Below, one piece after another: positions 12,886 through 21,002 of a DNA stretch of 64,000 nt. Origin of the DNA: Desulfomarina profundi (GTDB lineage: Bacteria; Desulfobacterota; Desulfobulbia; Desulfobulbales; Desulfocapsaceae); assembly GCF_019703855.1 (NCBI RefSeq), contig NZ_AP024086.1:496001-560000 (forward strand), written 5' to 3'. The translations under genes were made by a program, and so were the position numbers. Each line of letters begins with the position of its first letter. Position 1 is the stretch's first letter. The notes below the pieces were generated by a model. The model worked only from the letters and a program-made list of their open reading frames with translations, was not told the origin of the DNA and ran no database searches.

Positions 12886-13181
12886 AGCGCGGAGAGTCGT
12901 TTATGAATTTCCTTGACAATTATCAGGCAACCTAATATAAAAAACTTCTATGAAAATGAGTAGTCATTCATTGTTGTGCAGGTTTCAAGATTTGTACGTC
13001 AATAAATGATTGTTAGCAATACTTGGCTGCATCCTTTTTTATGTTAGTAAAAGTATTTTATACTTTTGTTAAATAAAATTGTATGGAGCTGAGGGTTTTT
13101 GTGGTATCAATTGTACATAGTTTAAGTTGGCCTTGTCGGTTCAGGGTCACAACAGTTAATACAAACTGAGGAGGTAGTTTA
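12886..13181 (+). promoter_or_regulatory. Upstream region of aprBA with a candidate promoter
   Basis: About 300 bases without a gene. TTGACA at 12913-12918 is followed 14-16 bases later by TAATATAA (12933-12940), a possible sigma-70 promoter with short spacing. It would leave an untranslated leader of over 200 bases before aprB. No dyad matching a known regulator was recognised. Confidence 0.3.
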
Positions 13182-13598
13182 ATGCCAAGTTATGTAGATC
13201 CTTCCAAATGTGATGGCTGCAAGGGTGGAGATAAAACCGCATGCATGTACATCTGTCCGAACGATCTGATGGTTTTGAACGTTGAGGAAATGCTGGCGTA
13301 TAATCAGGAGCCTGATGCGTGCTGGGAATGTTACTCTTGCGTTAAAATCTGTCCGCAGGGCGCTATTTTTGTGCGGGGTTATGATGACTTCGTGCCGATG
13401 GGCGGCCAGGTTCATCCGATGAGATCTTCCGATTCCATCATGTGGACTGTTAAATTCCGTAATGGAACCATGAAACGCTTCAAGTTCCCGATTCGCACCA
13501 CCGCTGAAGGTGCTGCCAATGCTTATGTGGGTGAAAAAGGCGCTAACCTGGACGACGAATGTCTGCTCCTTGAAAGCGATCTTCCTACCCCTAAATAA
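13182..13598 (+). CDS. aprB: Adenylylsulfate reductase, beta subunit
   Basis: A 138-residue iron-sulfur subunit of dissimilatory APS reductase. It passes electrons through two [4Fe-4S] clusters to the FAD of AprA. The first cluster motif is CDGCKGGDKTACMYICP near residues 10-26 and the second is CWECYSCVKICP near 47-58, with a Cys-Pro after each as in ferredoxins. The C-terminal tail (about 85-138) wraps AprA in known structures. A strong GAGGAGGT site precedes ATG 13182. aprA follows after 57 bases. Its typical direct partner in electron delivery is the Qmo complex encoded downstream. Confidence 0.97.
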   Translation: MPSYVDPSKCDGCKGGDKTACMYICPNDLMVLNVEEMLAYNQEPDACWECYSCVKICPQGAIFVRGYDDFVPMGGQVHPMRSSDSIMWTVKFRNGTMKRFKFPIRTTAEGAANAYVGEKGANLDDECLLLESDLPTPK

Positions 13599-13655: not shown

Positions 13656-15674
13656 ATGGCGTTACCTAATAAACCAAAAGGTGAGCTCAAAGCCGATGTG
13701 AACCCGGAAATCGTTGAACACGATGTGGACGTTCTTATCGTTGGTGGTGGTATGGCTGCTTGTGGAACCGCTTTTGAAATCAAGAAGTGGGCTCCGGAAG
13801 ATCTGAAAATCATGCTGGTTGACAAAGCTTCTCTCGAGCGTTCCGGTGCTGTTGCCCAGGGACTTTCTGCGATTAACACATACATCGGAGAGAATCCAAT
13901 TGAAGATTATGTCAAGATGGTTCGTAACGATCTGATGGGTGTTGTCCGCGAAGACCTTATTTATGACTGTGGTCGTCACGTTGATGAGTCTGTCAAGCTG
14001 TTTGAAGAATGGGGTCTGCCTGTATGGAAGAAGGATGCTGACGGGGAAAACCTGGACGGTGCAAAACCTGCTCCGAGTCTGCGTGAAGGTGGAACTCCTG
14101 TACGTACCGGTAAATGGCAGATTATGATTAACGGTGAATCCTACAAGTGCATCGTTGCAGAGCCTGCACAGACCGCTCTTGGTGCAGACAACGTGCTTGA
14201 GCGTGTTTTTATCGTGAAACTGCTTCTCGACAAGAACAAGCCAAATCAGATCGCTGGTGCTGCAGGATTTTCTACCCGTGAAAACAAAGTACACATTTTC
14301 CGCTGTAAAACTGCCATGGTTGCCTGTGGTGGTGCAGTAAATATCTTCCGTCCCCGTTCAACAGGTGAAGGTAAAGGACGTGCATGGTATCCAGTATGGA
14401 ACGCAGGTTCCACCTACACCATGTGTGCACAGGTCGGTGCTACTCTGACCATGATGGAAAATCGTTTCACCCCATCCCGCTTCAAGGATGGTTATGGACC
14501 GGTTGGTGCATGGTTCCTCCTTTTCAAAGCCAAAGTTTCCAACGGCCTTGGAGAGTTCTATGCAATGGGTGATGCGGCAAAGGAAGAGCTGGCCAACTAT
14601 ATGCCTTACGGTGCATCTGCGGTTACTCCCACCTGTCTGCGTAATCACCTGATGATCAATGAGCTGAAAGAAGGTCGTGGACCTATCTACATGGCTACCG
14701 ATGTTGCTCTGAATGCATTCCTTGACGAGCGTCGTGAAGCAGGAATGGACGAGAAGAAACTGAAGAAGTTCTGGAAACATCTTGAATCTGAAGCATGGGA
14801 AGATTTCCTCGACATGTCTGTTGGCCAGGCAGGTCTCTGGGCTGGTATGAATATTGAGCCTGAAAAAGTAGGTTCCGAGATTATGCCGACTGAGCCCTAC
14901 ATGCTTGGATCCCATTCCGGTTGTTGCGGTATCTGGACTTCCGGTCCTGAAGAGGACTGGGTACCCGATGTACAGAACGATTCCCGTGTACATAAGTACA
15001 AGTGGGGATATAACCGTATGACTACTGTTGACGGTCTGTTTACCGCTGGTGATGGTGTTGGTGCTTCCGGTCATAAGTTCTCTTCCGGTTCCCATGCTGA
15101 AGGACGTATTGCCGCCAAGCAGATGGTCAAATTCTGTCGTGATAATGCTGATTTTACACCGGAGCTCAAGCAGACTCCCCAGGAGATTGCAGATGAGATT
15201 TATGCACCAGTAAAACGGTACCACGATTTCGTCGGTGCTTCTACTGCCGCAGACGTAAATCCGAATTACTGCAAGCCTGCCGGTCTTATGATGCGTCTTA
15301 TGAAGGCAACGGATGAGTATGGTGGTGGTGTTGCTACCTATTACATGACTTCCGGAAAATTGCTCAATATCTGCCTTGATCTCCTCCAGCTTCTCCGTGA
15401 AGATGCTGAGAAAATGGCTGCCGGAGATCTGCATGAACTCCTGCGCTGCTGGGAAAACTACCATCGTATCTGGTGTGTTGAAACTCATATCCGTCACATT
15501 GAGTTCCGTAAGGAATCCCGTTATCCGGGCTTCTATTACAGGTCTGATTACCCAACCTGTGATGACGAGAACTGGAAGTGTTTTGTAAACTCCACCTTCG
15601 ATCCTGAAACTCAGGAATGGAAGTGTGAGAAGGTTGAGTGTATCAACATCATCGAAACTGACCCCTGGCTCTAA
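13656..15674 (+). CDS. aprA: Adenylylsulfate reductase, alpha subunit
   Basis: A 672-residue FAD enzyme that interconverts APS and sulfite plus AMP in the cytoplasm, the second step of sulfate reduction or, run in reverse, sulfite oxidation. The N-terminal FAD-binding fold shows DVLIVGGGMAACGTAFEI (about 28-45). Further FAD-family motifs are ERSGAVAQGLSAIN, MVACGGAVNIFRP and the C-terminal LFTAGDGVGASGHKFSSGS. The substrate-channel region includes ENRFTPSRFKDGYGPVGAW. AAGGAGAT precedes the ATG. Length is normal. The gene pair is closed by a terminator at 15716. The overall sequence looks like that of Desulfobulbales, which include both sulfate reducers and sulfur disproportionators, so the direction of the reaction in vivo is open. 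Confidence 0.97.
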   Translation: MALPNKPKGELKADVNPEIVEHDVDVLIVGGGMAACGTAFEIKKWAPEDLKIMLVDKASLERSGAVAQGLSAINTYIGENPIEDYVKMVRNDLMGVVREDLIYDCGRHVDESVKLFEEWGLPVWKKDADGENLDGAKPAPSLREGGTPVRTGKWQIMINGESYKCIVAEPAQTALGADNVLERVFIVKLLLDKNKPNQIAGAAGFSTRENKVHIFRCKTAMVACGGAVNIFRPRSTGEGKGRAWYPVWNAGSTYTMCAQVGATLTMMENRFTPSRFKDGYGPVGAWFLLFKAKVSNGLGEFYAMGDAAKEELANYMPYGASAVTPTCLRNHLMINELKEGRGPIYMATDVALNAFLDERREAGMDEKKLKKFWKHLESEAWEDFLDMSVGQAGLWAGMNIEPEKVGSEIMPTEPYMLGSHSGCCGIWTSGPEEDWVPDVQNDSRVHKYKWGYNRMTTVDGLFTAGDGVGASGHKFSSGSHAEGRIAAKQMVKFCRDNADFTPELKQTPQEIADEIYAPVKRYHDFVGASTAADVNPNYCKPAGLMMRLMKATDEYGGGVATYYMTSGKLLNICLDLLQLLREDAEKMAAGDLHELLRCWENYHRIWCVETHIRHIEFRKESRYPGFYYRSDYPTCDDENWKCFVNSTFDPETQEWKCEKVECINIIETDPWL

Positions 15675-15715: not shown

Positions 15716-15755
15716 AAATCTCCAGGGGTCTCTACGGCTTCTGGAGATTTTTTTG
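15716..15755 (+). terminator. Intrinsic terminator after aprA
   Basis: A 10-bp perfect stem (15716-15725 with 15741-15750), a 15-nt loop and a run of T. Confidence 0.9.
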
Positions 15756-15763
15756 TAAAAAGG

Positions 15764-15820
15764 GATTTTGATTTATGTTGGGCAATGAATTTCTGACCTT
15801 GCTCAACATAAATCAAAATC
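15764..15820. repeat. 22-bp inverted repeat upstream of qmoA
   Basis: Arms 15764-15785 and 15799-15820 are reverse complements over 22 bases with one G-T wobble; the loop is 13 nt. The outer part is AT-rich and no T-run follows. It lies just after the apr terminator and about 350 bases before qmoA. It could be a protein-binding dyad, a small hairpin RNA or a repeat. No ORF starting inside it has a ribosome-binding site. Confidence 0.6.
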
Positions 15821-16173
15821 TGATTACATTCGGAACTCAGTCCGATAAACAGTTACATTTTCATGTAAGCCGAGTTTCAAAGGTAATTAAAACGGTTAAA
15901 CATATTTCTTCTGAATTTCATCTGTTTGAGATTGAAAAACTCGCCTTTCGTATCCGGTACGGATATTGATGACTCGCAGCTGTATTTTCAGTGTTTTGAG
16001 ACAGCTTTTATTTAATAGAGTTTTTTCGGAGAGAGGATCCGAGTTTCACCTGATTTGGTAGCTCAGGTTGTTCTGTTGCACTCAATAGTTGATATACGTT
16101 CCATATATTTGGTATGTTGTGTGAATGTGTGTCAACGGTACAATATTTTTATGAGCAATTATGGAGGTAAGGT
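15821..16173 (+). promoter_or_regulatory. qmo upstream region
   Basis: No gene. It presumably holds the qmo promoter. TTGATA at about 16089 followed by TATGTT roughly 17-18 bases later is a weak candidate. A short near-palindrome, cgtatccggtacggatat, lies at about 15949-15966. Confidence 0.25.
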
Positions 16174-17433
16174 ATGACTGACGAGCAAGGCACTTCCAGT
16201 GCAATATTGGTCGTGGGCGGTGGCATCAGTGGTTTGACTGCTGCATTGGAAGCCGCGGAAGTCGGGAATGATGTATTTCTTGTTGAACAGAGCCCCAGTT
16301 TTGGAGGCAGGGTGGCCCAGTTAAATCAATATTTTCCGAAACTGTGTCCCCCGAGCTGTGGACTTGAAATCAATTTCCGTCGCATCAAGGACAATCGAAA
16401 AATAAGGACATATACCCTGACAACTGTAAAGTCAGTTTCGGGAACACCAGGTAACTATGAAGTTACACTGGAAACGGCTCCCCGCTATGTGAACAGTAAT
16501 TGTACAGCTTGTGGCGATTGCAGTGATGCATGTCCCGATGAAATTGAGAATGAATTTAATTTCGGTATGGACAAATGCAAGGCGGCCTATCTGCCTCATG
16601 AAATGGCTTTTCCGAGAAGATATGTTGTTAAAAAAGAAGCTCTGAGTACTGCTGGGGAAGAGGCGATCAAGGCTGCGTGTAAATACAATGCCATTGACCT
16701 GGATATGCAGGTGGAGACAAAAACCGTCAAGGTCGCATCCATAGTATGGGCCACCGGGTGGACTCCATATGAGCCAACCAGGATGGAAAATCTTCATTTC
16801 GCCGATTCACAGGCAATTATTACTAATATGATGATGGAGCGTATGGCTGCACCGAATGGTCCCACGGGTGGTACCATTGTCAGACCCGGGGATGGAAAGG
16901 AAATAGAATCTATTGCCTTTGTCCAGTGTGCAGGATCCAGGGATGAAAATCATCTTGAGTACTGCTCGCATATCTGTTGTATGGCAACTTTCAAACAGAT
17001 GAGTTATGTGCGTGAGCAGTATCCCGATGCCCAGATTTACGTGTTTTACATAGATCTTCGAACTCCCGGAAAATACGAAAAATTTCGTGAAGCCAGGATG
17101 GCCGATGAAAAGGCGACTTTTATTAAAGGTAAGGTTGCAGATATTGTAGTGGAGTCGGATGGCGGGGTAACTGTTATCGCCGAGAATGCCCTCACTGCTG
17201 AAAAAATATCTCAGAAAGTGGACATGGCAGTGTTGGCAACCGGTATGCAGCCGACTCTGGATATTAAGGGCGCTCCTGTTGCTCTCGATATGGACAGCAA
17301 TGGTTTTGTCATAACCAATTCTGAAAAAGCGATGATAGCCGCAGGCTGTGCAAAGAAGGCTGCGGATGTCGTTACTACCACTCAATCATCAACTGCTGCT
17401 GCCCTTAAGGCAATTCAGGTTTCCAGGAGGTAA
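16174..17433 (+). CDS. qmoA: Quinone-interacting membrane-bound oxidoreductase, subunit A
   Basis: A 419-residue HdrA-like flavoprotein of the Qmo complex, which links the menaquinone pool to APS reductase. It has an N-terminal FAD-binding fold LVVGGGISGLTAALEA (about 12-27) and the HdrA-family stretch LCPPSCGLE near 60. A ferredoxin-like motif CTACGDCSDACP lies near 110, and FVQCAGSRDENHLEYCSHICC near 250-270 may bind an additional cluster. The start is supported by GGAGGTAAGG before ATG 16174. qmoB begins seven bases after its stop. Confidence 0.95.
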   Translation: MTDEQGTSSAILVVGGGISGLTAALEAAEVGNDVFLVEQSPSFGGRVAQLNQYFPKLCPPSCGLEINFRRIKDNRKIRTYTLTTVKSVSGTPGNYEVTLETAPRYVNSNCTACGDCSDACPDEIENEFNFGMDKCKAAYLPHEMAFPRRYVVKKEALSTAGEEAIKAACKYNAIDLDMQVETKTVKVASIVWATGWTPYEPTRMENLHFADSQAIITNMMMERMAAPNGPTGGTIVRPGDGKEIESIAFVQCAGSRDENHLEYCSHICCMATFKQMSYVREQYPDAQIYVFYIDLRTPGKYEKFREARMADEKATFIKGKVADIVVESDGGVTVIAENALTAEKISQKVDMAVLATGMQPTLDIKGAPVALDMDSNGFVITNSEKAMIAAGCAKKAADVVTTTQSSTAAALKAIQVSRR

Positions 17434-17439
17434 TTATCA

Positions 17440-19701
17440 ATGGATAAGACATATTGTGCATATATATGTTCCGGTTGTGGCATCGGGGAAGCGCTTGATA
17501 TGGAGGCTCTCGCCGAGGTTGTAACTGATGAGATGTCCATGGAGTGCAAAAGTCATGAATGCCTCTGTGGACAGGAAGGGCGAGCTTTTATTGAAAAAGA
17601 TATCGCCGATGGGATCAATACCGTCGTTATTGGAGCATGTTCTCCCCGGGTAATGACAGACGAATTTAATTTCGGTGATGACAAGATTACCGTTCGTGCA
17701 AATTTACGTGAGCAGGTGGTCTGGGCGGAAATTAAGCCCGCCGAGGGTGAAGAGCCTGATGATGAAGCTGCTGAATATCTGCAGGAAACAGCAGCAGACT
17801 ATATGAGAATGGCCTGTACCCGCGCGCAGAAGACAGAATTACCCGAACCGTTCCAGCTTGAAATGCTGCATAAGACCATTCTTGTCATGGGTGGTGGTCT
17901 TGCTGGTCTCACCGCGGCCAAGGAAGCTGCTGCTGCCGGTTATGATGTTCTGCTGATTGAAAAAGAGGACAAACTCGGTGGTAAGGCCAATGGTTGGAGA
18001 AAATCATTTCCCACGAAGGCTCCATGGACTGATCTTGAAGAGAATCCTATTGATGCACTGATTGCAGAGATTGAAGGCAATTCAAAAATCACTGTAAAGA
18101 CAGGCACGGAAGTTGCCCGTATTTCCGGTGCTCCTGGAGATTTTAATGTCACTCTGAAGGATGCTGGTAGCAAAAGTGAGTGGGATGCTCCTGCTAAAGT
18201 TACGGTTGACGAGCAGGATCTCATTGAAAAGGGTGAGATGGAAGATCCCAATGATGGATTGCAAAAATATACTGAAATTGATCCTGATGCTATCAAAATT
18301 GGTTCGGTTGTTCTGGCCACAGGCTGGAAACCTGCTGATGTCTCACAATATGAACATCTGGGTCATGGAACTTTGAAGAATGTTGTTACCAATGCAGAGT
18401 TTGAAAAACTTTCCAAGGAAGGCAAGGTGCCTGCAAACGTCGCGTTCATTCAAAGTCCCGGTGGAGAAGAGCACGATAAGGATTTTCCGTACTGTAACTC
18501 CGTTACTTCCATGGTTGCTCTGAAACAGGCCCAGTATGTATGTGAGGATAATGAAGACGGTAAAGCGTTTATTCTGTACCAGCATATGCGTACTCCCGGT
18601 CATATGGAACTGTTTTATAAAAATGTTCAGCTCCATGACGGAATTTTCATGACCAAGGCAACGGTAATGAAAGTTGAGGAAAATGGTGATAAATTAAGCG
18701 TATCTGCGGAAAACACACTGTTGGGTGAGAATCTGACTCTGGATGTTGACATGGTGGTTCTGGCTGCTGGCATGGAACCGGTTACAGCCAATGAAAATTC
18801 CATCAATCTCGCTTATCGGCAGGGACCTGCCTTTTCTGATCTGGACCTTTTTGACGGTTATGCAGATTCTCATTTTATCTGTTTTCCGTATGAAACCAGG
18901 AGAACCGGTGTTTATGCCTGTGGTGGTGTCAGAAAGGCGGAGACCATGGAAGAGGCTGTTGACGATGCTACCGGTGCCGCTCTCAAGGCTATTCAGTGTA
19001 TTGAATCAGTGGATCGTGGTGTGGCTGTACATCCGCGTTCAGGTGATGCGACCTATCCCGATTTTTTCATGCAGCGATGTACCCAGTGTAAACGGTGTAC
19101 AGAGGAATGTCCTTTTGGTGCCCTGGATGACGATGAAAAAGGAACGCCGCTGCCGAACCCGACCCGTTGTCGGCGTTGCGGTACCTGTATGGGTGCATGT
19201 CCTGAAAGAATTATTGGTTTCAAGGATTACAATATTGATTTGATCGGCTCCATGATTAAATCGGTTGAAGTTCCGGAAGACGATGACGATCGTTTGAGAA
19301 TAATTGTGTTTGTCTGCGAAAACGATGCGTATCCTGCCCTCGATATGGCAGGAATGAAAAGGAACGGTATTAATCATATGATCCGCTTTATTCCGGTTCG
19401 TTGCCTGGGGTCAGTTAATATGGCCTGGATCAGGGATGCGCTTTCTGCCGGAATGGACGGTGCCATGCTGCTTGGATGCTCTTATGGAGATGACTACCAG
19501 TGCCATTTCGTAAAAGGATCTGAAATTGCAAACAAGCGTATGGAAAATATAGGTGATACTCTTTCAACCCTCGGTCTTGAGCCGGAGCGTTGTGCGGCTG
19601 AACAGGTTGCCATTACCGATTACGACAAAATTCCGCAGATTCTTAATGATTTTGTAGAGGAAATCGTCGAAATGGGACCAAATCCATTCAAAGGCTTCTA
19701 A
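17440..19701 (+). CDS. qmoB: Quinone-interacting membrane-bound oxidoreductase, subunit B
   Basis: A 753-residue HdrA/MvhD-like flavo-iron-sulfur protein of the Qmo complex. It begins with a cysteine-rich HdrA-like segment (CAYICSGCGIGEAL; CKSHECLCG). An FAD-binding fold VMGGGLAGLTAAKEAAAAG follows near residue 150. Two ferredoxin motifs, CTQCKRCTEECP and CRRCGTCMGACP, lie near 545-590. The C-terminal 140 residues resemble MvhD, the [2Fe-2S] subunit of methanogen hydrogenase complexes, with VFVCENDAYPALD, PVRCLGSVN and GCSYGDDYQCHF. In Desulfovibrio such a subunit has been proposed to take part in electron transfer or confurcation with AprBA. It is cotranscribed with qmoA and qmoC. Confidence 0.95.
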   Translation: MDKTYCAYICSGCGIGEALDMEALAEVVTDEMSMECKSHECLCGQEGRAFIEKDIADGINTVVIGACSPRVMTDEFNFGDDKITVRANLREQVVWAEIKPAEGEEPDDEAAEYLQETAADYMRMACTRAQKTELPEPFQLEMLHKTILVMGGGLAGLTAAKEAAAAGYDVLLIEKEDKLGGKANGWRKSFPTKAPWTDLEENPIDALIAEIEGNSKITVKTGTEVARISGAPGDFNVTLKDAGSKSEWDAPAKVTVDEQDLIEKGEMEDPNDGLQKYTEIDPDAIKIGSVVLATGWKPADVSQYEHLGHGTLKNVVTNAEFEKLSKEGKVPANVAFIQSPGGEEHDKDFPYCNSVTSMVALKQAQYVCEDNEDGKAFILYQHMRTPGHMELFYKNVQLHDGIFMTKATVMKVEENGDKLSVSAENTLLGENLTLDVDMVVLAAGMEPVTANENSINLAYRQGPAFSDLDLFDGYADSHFICFPYETRRTGVYACGGVRKAETMEEAVDDATGAALKAIQCIESVDRGVAVHPRSGDATYPDFFMQRCTQCKRCTEECPFGALDDDEKGTPLPNPTRCRRCGTCMGACPERIIGFKDYNIDLIGSMIKSVEVPEDDDDRLRIIVFVCENDAYPALDMAGMKRNGINHMIRFIPVRCLGSVNMAWIRDALSAGMDGAMLLGCSYGDDYQCHFVKGSEIANKRMENIGDTLSTLGLEPERCAAEQVAITDYDKIPQILNDFVEEIVEMGPNPFKGF

Positions 19702-19814: not shown

Positions 19815-21002
19815 ATGAATGTTCAACCGGATTTAGATTTTATCAGATCTCTGAAGGAAGCAGGAGGGGATACACTGAAAAAGTGTTATCAATGTGCCAC
19901 CTGCTCTGTGATGTGTCCCCTTTCAAAAGACGGTAGCCCGTTTCCCCGTAAGGAAATGATCTGGTCTGGATGGGGGATGAAGGAAAAGCTTATTGCTGAC
20001 CCGGATGTATTTTTGTGTCATCAGTGTGGTGACTGTACTGCAAACTGCCCACGCGGTGCCAAACCCGGCGATGTACTCGGAGCGATTCGTGCCTATGCCT
20101 ATACTCATTACGGCTGGCCGGCGCCACTAGCCAAGCTGGCATCAAGTGCGAAAGGATTGCCCATGTTGATCGGTATCCCGGTAATTGTTATTCTGATCAT
20201 GTGGCTGCTTTCGGGGGCCATGCATATTCCTTCCCAGGAAGATTTTGCCCACCATGGTTACCAGCAGTTTTTTGGAACCTGGAGTTTTAAATGGTATGCC
20301 AAGAATATCTTTTTTATTGTTCTCATAATGGTCCCTTCCCTGGGACTCGGGCTTTTTTCCGCATTCAAGGGTATTACGAAAATGTGGAAAGCCATGGCGG
20401 AAAATGAAGGTGTTAATCCGGATTATCGCCCATCAGCAGTACAATTTACCAAGGAATTCTTATGGCCGTCAATTGTGGAGATCATTCAGCACAATCGTTT
20501 TAAGGAGTGTACTACACATATAGACAGGGTAAGAGGGCATCTGCCACTTATGTTTGCCTTTATAGGTCTCTTTATTGTGACCTGCTGGTCACTTCTAAAA
20601 AATGATGTACTCGGTCTTATCTGGCCTTCGCTGCATGGACCGCTTCCATTGACGGATCCCTTTAAAATTCTGGCCAATGTTTCTGCTGTTGCTTTTATTT
20701 TTGGTATAGCGGTACTGTGGAGCAACAGGAAAAAGGCTGAGCAGGAGCTTGATACAAAAGTAACATTTTATGACTGGTTTCTAATCTGGGAAATCACAGC
20801 AGTGGGTGTTACCGGGCTTGCAGCGGAACTGCTCAGGTGGGCAGGTATGCCGACCATGGGATATATAGTTTATTTTTTCCATCTTGTGGCAATAATGATG
20901 CTTTTCCTCTATTTGCCATACACCAAACTGGCGCACCTTATTTACAGAACGGCTGCTTATACCTTTGAAAAGTATAGAGAAAGTGCTTTTGCACAAAAAT
21001 AG
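19815..21002 (+). CDS. qmoC: Quinone-interacting membrane-bound oxidoreductase, subunit C
   Basis: A 395-residue membrane anchor of the Qmo complex and site of menaquinol oxidation. The N-terminal 90 residues form an HdrC-like domain with two iron-sulfur motifs, CYQCATCSVMCP (about 24-35) and CHQCGDCTANCP (about 68-79). The rest is a membrane part with about six hydrophobic segments (for example GIPVIVILIMWLLSGA, IFFIVLIMVPSLGLGLF and PLMFAFIGLFIVTCW) resembling b-type haem subunits of the NarI/DsrM type. GGAGGAAG precedes the ATG. It is closed by a terminator 19 bases after the stop. Confidence 0.95.
   Translation: MNVQPDLDFIRSLKEAGGDTLKKCYQCATCSVMCPLSKDGSPFPRKEMIWSGWGMKEKLIADPDVFLCHQCGDCTANCPRGAKPGDVLGAIRAYAYTHYGWPAPLAKLASSAKGLPMLIGIPVIVILIMWLLSGAMHIPSQEDFAHHGYQQFFGTWSFKWYAKNIFFIVLIMVPSLGLGLFSAFKGITKMWKAMAENEGVNPDYRPSAVQFTKEFLWPSIVEIIQHNRFKECTTHIDRVRGHLPLMFAFIGLFIVTCWSLLKNDVLGLIWPSLHGPLPLTDPFKILANVSAVAFIFGIAVLWSNRKKAEQELDTKVTFYDWFLIWEITAVGVTGLAAELLRWAGMPTMGYIVYFFHLVAIMMLFLYLPYTKLAHLIYRTAAYTFEKYRESAFAQK

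Follow-up and report, generated by a model that had tools for sequence, protein, structure and literature searches.

A hairpin conserved by pairing between the apr terminator and qmoA in the Desulfocapsaceae

The APS-reduction step at the core of sulfate respiration is carried out by AprBA and QmoABC, and AprBA is an abundant product. In the 64-kb stretch of DNA analysed here (the window), the aprBA and qmoABC genes lie side by side on one strand, and the gap between them holds a terminator, H1, followed by a long hairpin, H2 (Table 1). What is this hairpin, and could it influence how much qmo message is made next to the apr genes? It would give a concrete means, testable at low cost, of asking how sulfate reducers set the AprBA:QmoABC ratio, and none of the open-licence papers listed in our literature searches was seen to describe an RNA element for the aprA-qmoA gap. 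The source genome is a single contig of 4.31 Mb with an estimated completeness of 95.6%, and the matches that name aprA, aprB and qmoC are all to NCBIfam equivalogs.

Table 1. Features of the apr-qmo locus, in window coordinates
Feature	Position	Strand	Basis
sigma-70-like promoter of aprBA, TTGACA-17-TATAAA	12913..12941	+	top-scoring promoter upstream of the apr-qmo genes
aprB	13182..13598	+	NCBIfam TIGR02060 above cut-off
aprA	13656..15674	+	NCBIfam TIGR02061 above cut-off
apr intrinsic terminator H1 with T-run	15716..15754 (hairpin 15716-15750, T-run 15748-15754)	+	terminator scan
hairpin H2, 22 pairs, 13-nt loop	15764..15820	+	inverted-repeat scan, folding, covariation, covariance model
proximal covarying helix H3	16085..16139 (arms 16085-16101, 16123-16139)	+	covariation; 34 nt before qmoA
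qmoA	16174..17433	+	ORF; HdrA-type matches below cut-off; name from context (between aprA and qmoC)
qmoB	17440..19701	+	ORF; HdrA-type matches below cut-off; name from context
qmoC	19815..21002	+	NCBIfam NF038018 above cut-off

The hairpin in the window

An earlier note on this DNA had described a nearly perfect 22-bp inverted repeat that begins just after the aprA terminator and lacks a T-tail, and our analysis agrees on each point. The two 22-nt arms (15764-15785 and 15799-15820) are 95% complementary, and their sole non-Watson-Crick position is G-T, so that as RNA all 22 of 22 positions pair (one as G-U), with one further outer G-U pair. H2 was the top inverted repeat of the window in a Watson-Crick-only scan with loops of 3-25 nt (score 18; runner-up, 14), and its minimum free energy of -29.2 kcal/mol (z = -7.9) was equalled by none of 200 shuffles. 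It starts 9 nt past the end of the H1 T-run and is directly followed by TGATTACA, and thus has no T-tail; we found no T-run directly 3' of H2, and the terminator scan called 15716-15750 alone. Both DNA similarity search and covariance model gave a copy number of one in the genome, which settles the self-search that the earlier note had proposed against its suggestion of an ordinary repeat, and for the same reason we rejected a dispersed repeat of the REP or MITE kind. At the gathering threshold, Rfam returned only tRNAs in the window and nothing in the loci of five relatives; microRNA-family matches to H2 scored far below the gathering score and were read as chance matches to a long hairpin.

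The gap itself is 502 nt long in the window, versus 232-276 nt in four congeners. A 10-bp direct repeat, CCGAGTTTCA, occurs at 15870-15879 and 16039-16048, which suggests an insertion; no close second copy of the stretch 15870-16048 was found elsewhere in the genome.

Conservation across the order

At a strict threshold, 207 of the 257 genomes of the order contained a QmoA relative; a looser search, of 58 relatives, also counted HdrA-type paralogs. From 172 loci we obtained 138 gaps, comprising 116 unique aprA-qmoA gaps, and a second round (21 loci tried, 20 extracted) contributed 15 new ones, giving 131 unique gaps in total from Desulfopila, Desulforhopalus, Desulfocapsa, Desulfofustis, Desulfobulbus and others. 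To see whether H2 would accompany a qmoA apart from aprA, six qmoA loci were examined, of which five had aprA upstream; the sixth, L212, ends at a contig end.

A simple pattern of the H1 3' arm was present in 129 of the 131 unique gaps. The H1 core AATCTCCAGG...CCTGGAGATT occurs, almost invariant, in most Desulfobulbales, and a related core, CCTCCAGG...CCTGGAGG, in most Desulfobacterales examined. Terminator sequences are usually variable, and the near invariance of H1 therefore hints that it may have another role.

The comparison of the gap across Desulfobulbales, which the earlier note had put forward as a check, found the hairpin conserved by pairing, with a long hairpin at the H2 place in about 65 of the 70 unique Desulfocapsaceae gaps (partly judged by eye). 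The window's own type accounted for 31 of these gaps, with the arms TTTTAGCTTATG...CATAAGCTAAAA in many, and a second type, TTGTGATTGATT...GAGTTACAA, for 21; 13 of the 18 remaining gaps held, as judged by eye, a variant of the two types or another hairpin at that place, leaving five (L028, L030, L031, L066 and L116) without a clear H2. Gaps in the Desulfobulbaceae, and in some further families within the order, are mostly shorter and contain one hairpin, TTTTTGTTTGAGTTGA...TCAATTGAACCAGAAA, which ends 35-51 nt before qmoA and may be the counterpart of either H2 (by its nearness to the terminator) or H3 (by its nearness to qmoA and its GTTGA...TCAAT core). On a strict Watson-Crick score, a stem that beat all 20 shuffles was found in 49 of 70 Desulfocapsaceae gaps and 31 of 43 Desulfobulbaceae-group gaps but in only 5 of 16 Desulfobacterales gaps. 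Four of the Desulfobacterales loci (L157, L169, L172 and L209) carry a different long hairpin in the same gap, of the GGATCTTAAAACTGGG...GAGTTTTAAGTTCC type, and in one gap (L017) the H2 loop bears an insertion with its own hairpin, with the stem arms retained.

The position of H2 is kept on both sides. The spacer between H1 and H2 measured 8-16 nt in 23 of 28 cases and the distance from H2 to the qmoA ATG 121-149 nt, also in 23 of 28; since both spacings are kept equally often, we rejected the idea that H2 is tied more closely to qmoA than to the terminator. Long spacers lay on the terminator side of H2 in five cases and on the qmoA side in two (the window, L003, and L008), and three congeners had a shorter H2-qmoA distance of 89 nt.

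Searches with covariance models gave a similar picture. Model R1 matched 33 of the 88 genomes of the family Desulfocapsaceae, with the best match upstream of qmoA in 32 of the 33; 31 of these best matches were on the sense strand, 89-355 nt before the listed qmoA start. The other, in genome G174, sits 135 nt ahead of qmoA as read directly from the sequence, and there the antisense score slightly exceeded the sense score (56.8 versus 54.2 bits). The single match not near qmoA (G188:C52, 38.4 bits) falls in a stretch that matched neither aprA nor qmoA. By our reading, R1-negative genomes mostly belong to genera with other hairpin types, outside R1, or are drafts in which no qmoA was found. Model R2, for the Desulfobulbaceae type, matched 34 of 146 genomes, with at least 30 of the 34 matches 35-51 nt before qmoA, among the qmoA starts listed.

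We then aligned the hairpins by type. Alignment A2 holds 28 of the 31 window-type hairpins (L009, L040 and L041 were excluded, and R1 then recovered them with 42.6, 38.4 and 51.9 bits). Alignment A5 holds 21 sequences of the second type, made up of 19 of 20 hairpins (that of L062 is the same as that of L054) plus L055 and L058. Alignment A3 holds 26 of the 31 Desulfobulbaceae-type hairpins; it leaves out the near-duplicates L075, L087 and L127 and the poorly extracted L117 and L118, and L151 entered it from its gap sequence. In A2, 90.7% of cells were paired, compared to 75.9% after shuffling and at most 48.4% after sliding, with changes on both sides in 15 of 22 pairs. The corresponding values were 89.0%, 79.3% and at most 56.9% for A5 (both-side changes in 13 of 23 pairs) and 84.9%, 75.7% and at most 62.9% for A3 (14 of 23). 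Not one of 500 shuffles attained the observed value of any of five measures in A2, A5 or A3, although the shuffle and slide controls ignore phylogeny and the sequences, being related, are dependent. RNAalifold, unaided, recovered most of the A2 stem (17 pairs, 14 with a double change). H2 thus shows what is expected of a conserved structured RNA, namely compensatory changes beyond both the shuffled and the slid controls. Its loop is neither conserved nor constant in length, its inner stem varies by paired mutations and the sequence of its outer stem varies between lineages.

On the sense strand, G-U cells outnumbered A-C cells by 54:19 in A2, 81:8 in A5 and 63:14 in A3, an excess that is somewhat inflated because the scores used to find the hairpins credit G-T. 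Such an excess points to an RNA read in the apr/qmo direction rather than a DNA dyad, and would be expected from neither a DNA dyad nor a cruciform nor an antisense RNA. That H2 is an RNA structure, with a stem maintained by paired mutations on the sense strand, is well supported by these alignments.

Closer to qmoA, the helix H3 also covaries, with 77.7% of cells paired in 25 gaps versus 68.7% when shuffled (largest of 1,000 shuffles, 75.1%); the count draws on 25 of the 59 Desulfocapsaceae gaps tried, the other 34 having no sequence anchors. Its 84 G-U cells compare with 5 A-C cells, an excess even more marked than that of H2 but somewhat inflated, because whenever more than one left anchor fitted we chose the one with the better pairing. 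H3 has a recurrent A-A mismatch (14 of 25 rows) and a recurrent G-U pair.

Transcription of qmoABC and competing readings

We scanned for promoters of the sigma-70 consensus, and in 21 of 21 genomes this simple scan revealed TTGACA and a -10-like hexamer upstream of aprB, the -10 ending 182-270 nt before the gene; 19 of these 21 regions scored better than 38 or more of 40 shuffles, and for the promoter of the window none of 40 shuffles in its own genome was as good. In the apr-qmo gap, no sigma-70 promoter stood above chance: the 38/40 level was reached in 4 of the 68 gaps from Desulfocapsaceae and in 2 of the 45 from elsewhere. A test of the -10 alone had no power, as its apr positive control failed too. 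With a promoter above chance before aprB and none in the gap, qmoABC may be fed by read-through from apr; other or activator-dependent promoters may also lie in the gap.

We favor, with a probability of roughly 0.45, reading H2 as an intercistronic hairpin in mRNA that is read through from apr, where it would help to process or protect qmoABC mRNA. Most qmoABC transcription would come from RNA polymerase passing H1, which would make aprBA mRNA abundant and leave less qmoABC mRNA. This read-through RNA would then be cut either in the AU-rich linker that separates H1 from H2, by an RNase E-type enzyme, or in the 22-bp H2 stem, by an RNase III-type enzyme (profile searches of the genome gave two matches to RNase E/G and one to RNase III). 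After the cut, H1 would stay on the apr message and shield the 3' end of aprBA mRNA, and H2 together with H3 would shield the 5' end of qmoABC mRNA. The succession of abundant AprBA, H1, linker, a stem of 22-23 pairs and then qmoABC would act as a stoichiometry device. Read-through, cutting and protection are steps that we infer, and H2 probably shapes the amount of qmo message made from the neighboring apr operon. Several observations go against this mechanism: H1, with 15 pairs by the scan and a T-run, looks like a good terminator, so that read-through might be too low; 5 of 70 Desulfocapsaceae gaps seem to have no H2; and the G174 match scores slightly better on the antisense strand.

The main rival gives qmoABC its own promoter between H1 and H2, of a type outside our scan, and makes H2 and H3 a regulatory 5' leader to which a protein or small molecule would bind, adjusting qmo expression. 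This is a possibility that we take seriously while considering it unlikely. It would account for the recurrence of non-canonical positions in two helices that covary (column 10/56 of A3, unpaired as G-G in 26 of 26 rows; column 9/53 of A5, unpaired in 18 of 21 rows; and the A-A of H3, in 14 of 25 rows) and for the spacing between H2 and the ATG retained in 23 of 28 cases, but 113 gaps showed no sigma-70 promoter above chance, the outer stem sequence varies between lineages, and H2 is a single hairpin with an unconserved loop and no junction. That H2 and H3 together make up a cis-regulatory leader RNA of a new class in dissimilatory sulfate reduction, whose conserved mismatches would bind a protein or metabolite and which would tune the Qmo electron-transfer complex relative to APS reductase by sulfur or redox state, seems to us doubtful. 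The small RNA raised in the earlier note survives in part: compensatory changes and the G-U excess bear out its RNA nature, whereas an independent transcript fits poorly with a gap in which no sigma-70 promoter stands out above chance and with an element that precedes qmoA in 32 of 33 matched genomes. H2 is stable, conserved and on the sense strand, as a free small RNA or part of one might be; however, its loop and inner stem are variable in sequence, as a pairing seed would not be, and it has no T-tailed end of its own, which makes this reading improbable.

It is very improbable that H2 is instead an operator dyad, bound as DNA by a transcription factor of which HcpR would be one example. The outer arms TTTTAGCTTATG/CATAAGCTAAAA are well conserved within one group, and HcpR control has been predicted for apr in Desulfovibrio, with qmoABC, just downstream of apsBA, possibly HcpR-repressed too according to PMC1274295; HcpR operators of sulfate-reduction genes, with control of apr and possibly qmo, are proposed in PMC545781 and PMC1274295. 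As given there, however, these operators are short dyads (of the TTGTGA-N6-TCACAA or TTGACC-N2-GGTCAA type), whereas H2 is a 22-bp hairpin whose inner stem changes by paired mutations, whose loop varies in length and whose G-U cells exceed A-C cells by 54:19. Comparison of H2 with the published HcpR/FNR-type consensus gave no match above chance. The best HcpR or CRP-type candidate, a three-mismatch match at 15791-15808, was at about chance level and extends into the non-conserved loop; we rejected it, and the HcpR-type redox-regulator binding site that had been suggested finds no support. That H2 serves as a backup terminator, or is what remains of a mobile repeat, we regard as highly improbable: it does lie close behind the terminator, and longer spacers, read as insertions, occur on either side of it, but no T-run follows it, it is single-copy in the genome and its pairing is maintained across a family.

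Known systems and the apr leader

The 5' stem-loop mRNA stabilisers of which Emory et al. wrote in 1992 are reportedly strong hairpins near the 5' end, in which structure matters rather than sequence. H2 is likewise a strong hairpin, and its place at a 5' end is putative. As an intercistronic hairpin, H2 belongs to a known kind; what is new is its conservation across a family, with a similar hairpin in other families of the order, at a core sulfate-respiration operon.

The scheme resembles selective RNA processing and stabilization (SRPS; PMC4423207) and internal terminators (PMC9045158), and H2 is, in keeping with the SRPS type, a stable stem-loop between co-directional genes. According to PMC4423207, the cip-cel stem-loops of Clostridium cellulolyticum stand at the 3' ends of highly transcribed genes. 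The apr-qmo gap is like cip-cel in that stable stem-loops separate genes of one direction that have to supply their products in different amounts, and unlike it in that H2 follows a separate terminator and any processing site there is putative. In the reporter experiments described there, the stem-loops altered the transcript of the upstream gene and not that of the downstream one, which by analogy argues against 5' protection by H2. In PMC9045158, ABC-importer operons have an internal intrinsic terminator between an abundant gene and its less abundant partners, an arrangement that H1, between aprBA and qmoABC, would fit; unlike those internal terminators, H2 lacks a T-run and comes as an additional hairpin after the terminator.

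At the other end of the apr operon, a dyad, AATGAGTAG[TC]CATT, follows the aprBA promoter in 12 of 21 genomes, and CAACAGTTAAT precedes the ribosome site in 11 of 21. Judged by these motifs and by the distance of the promoter from aprB, positions 12913-13181 of the window may represent a long apr leader with a candidate operator.
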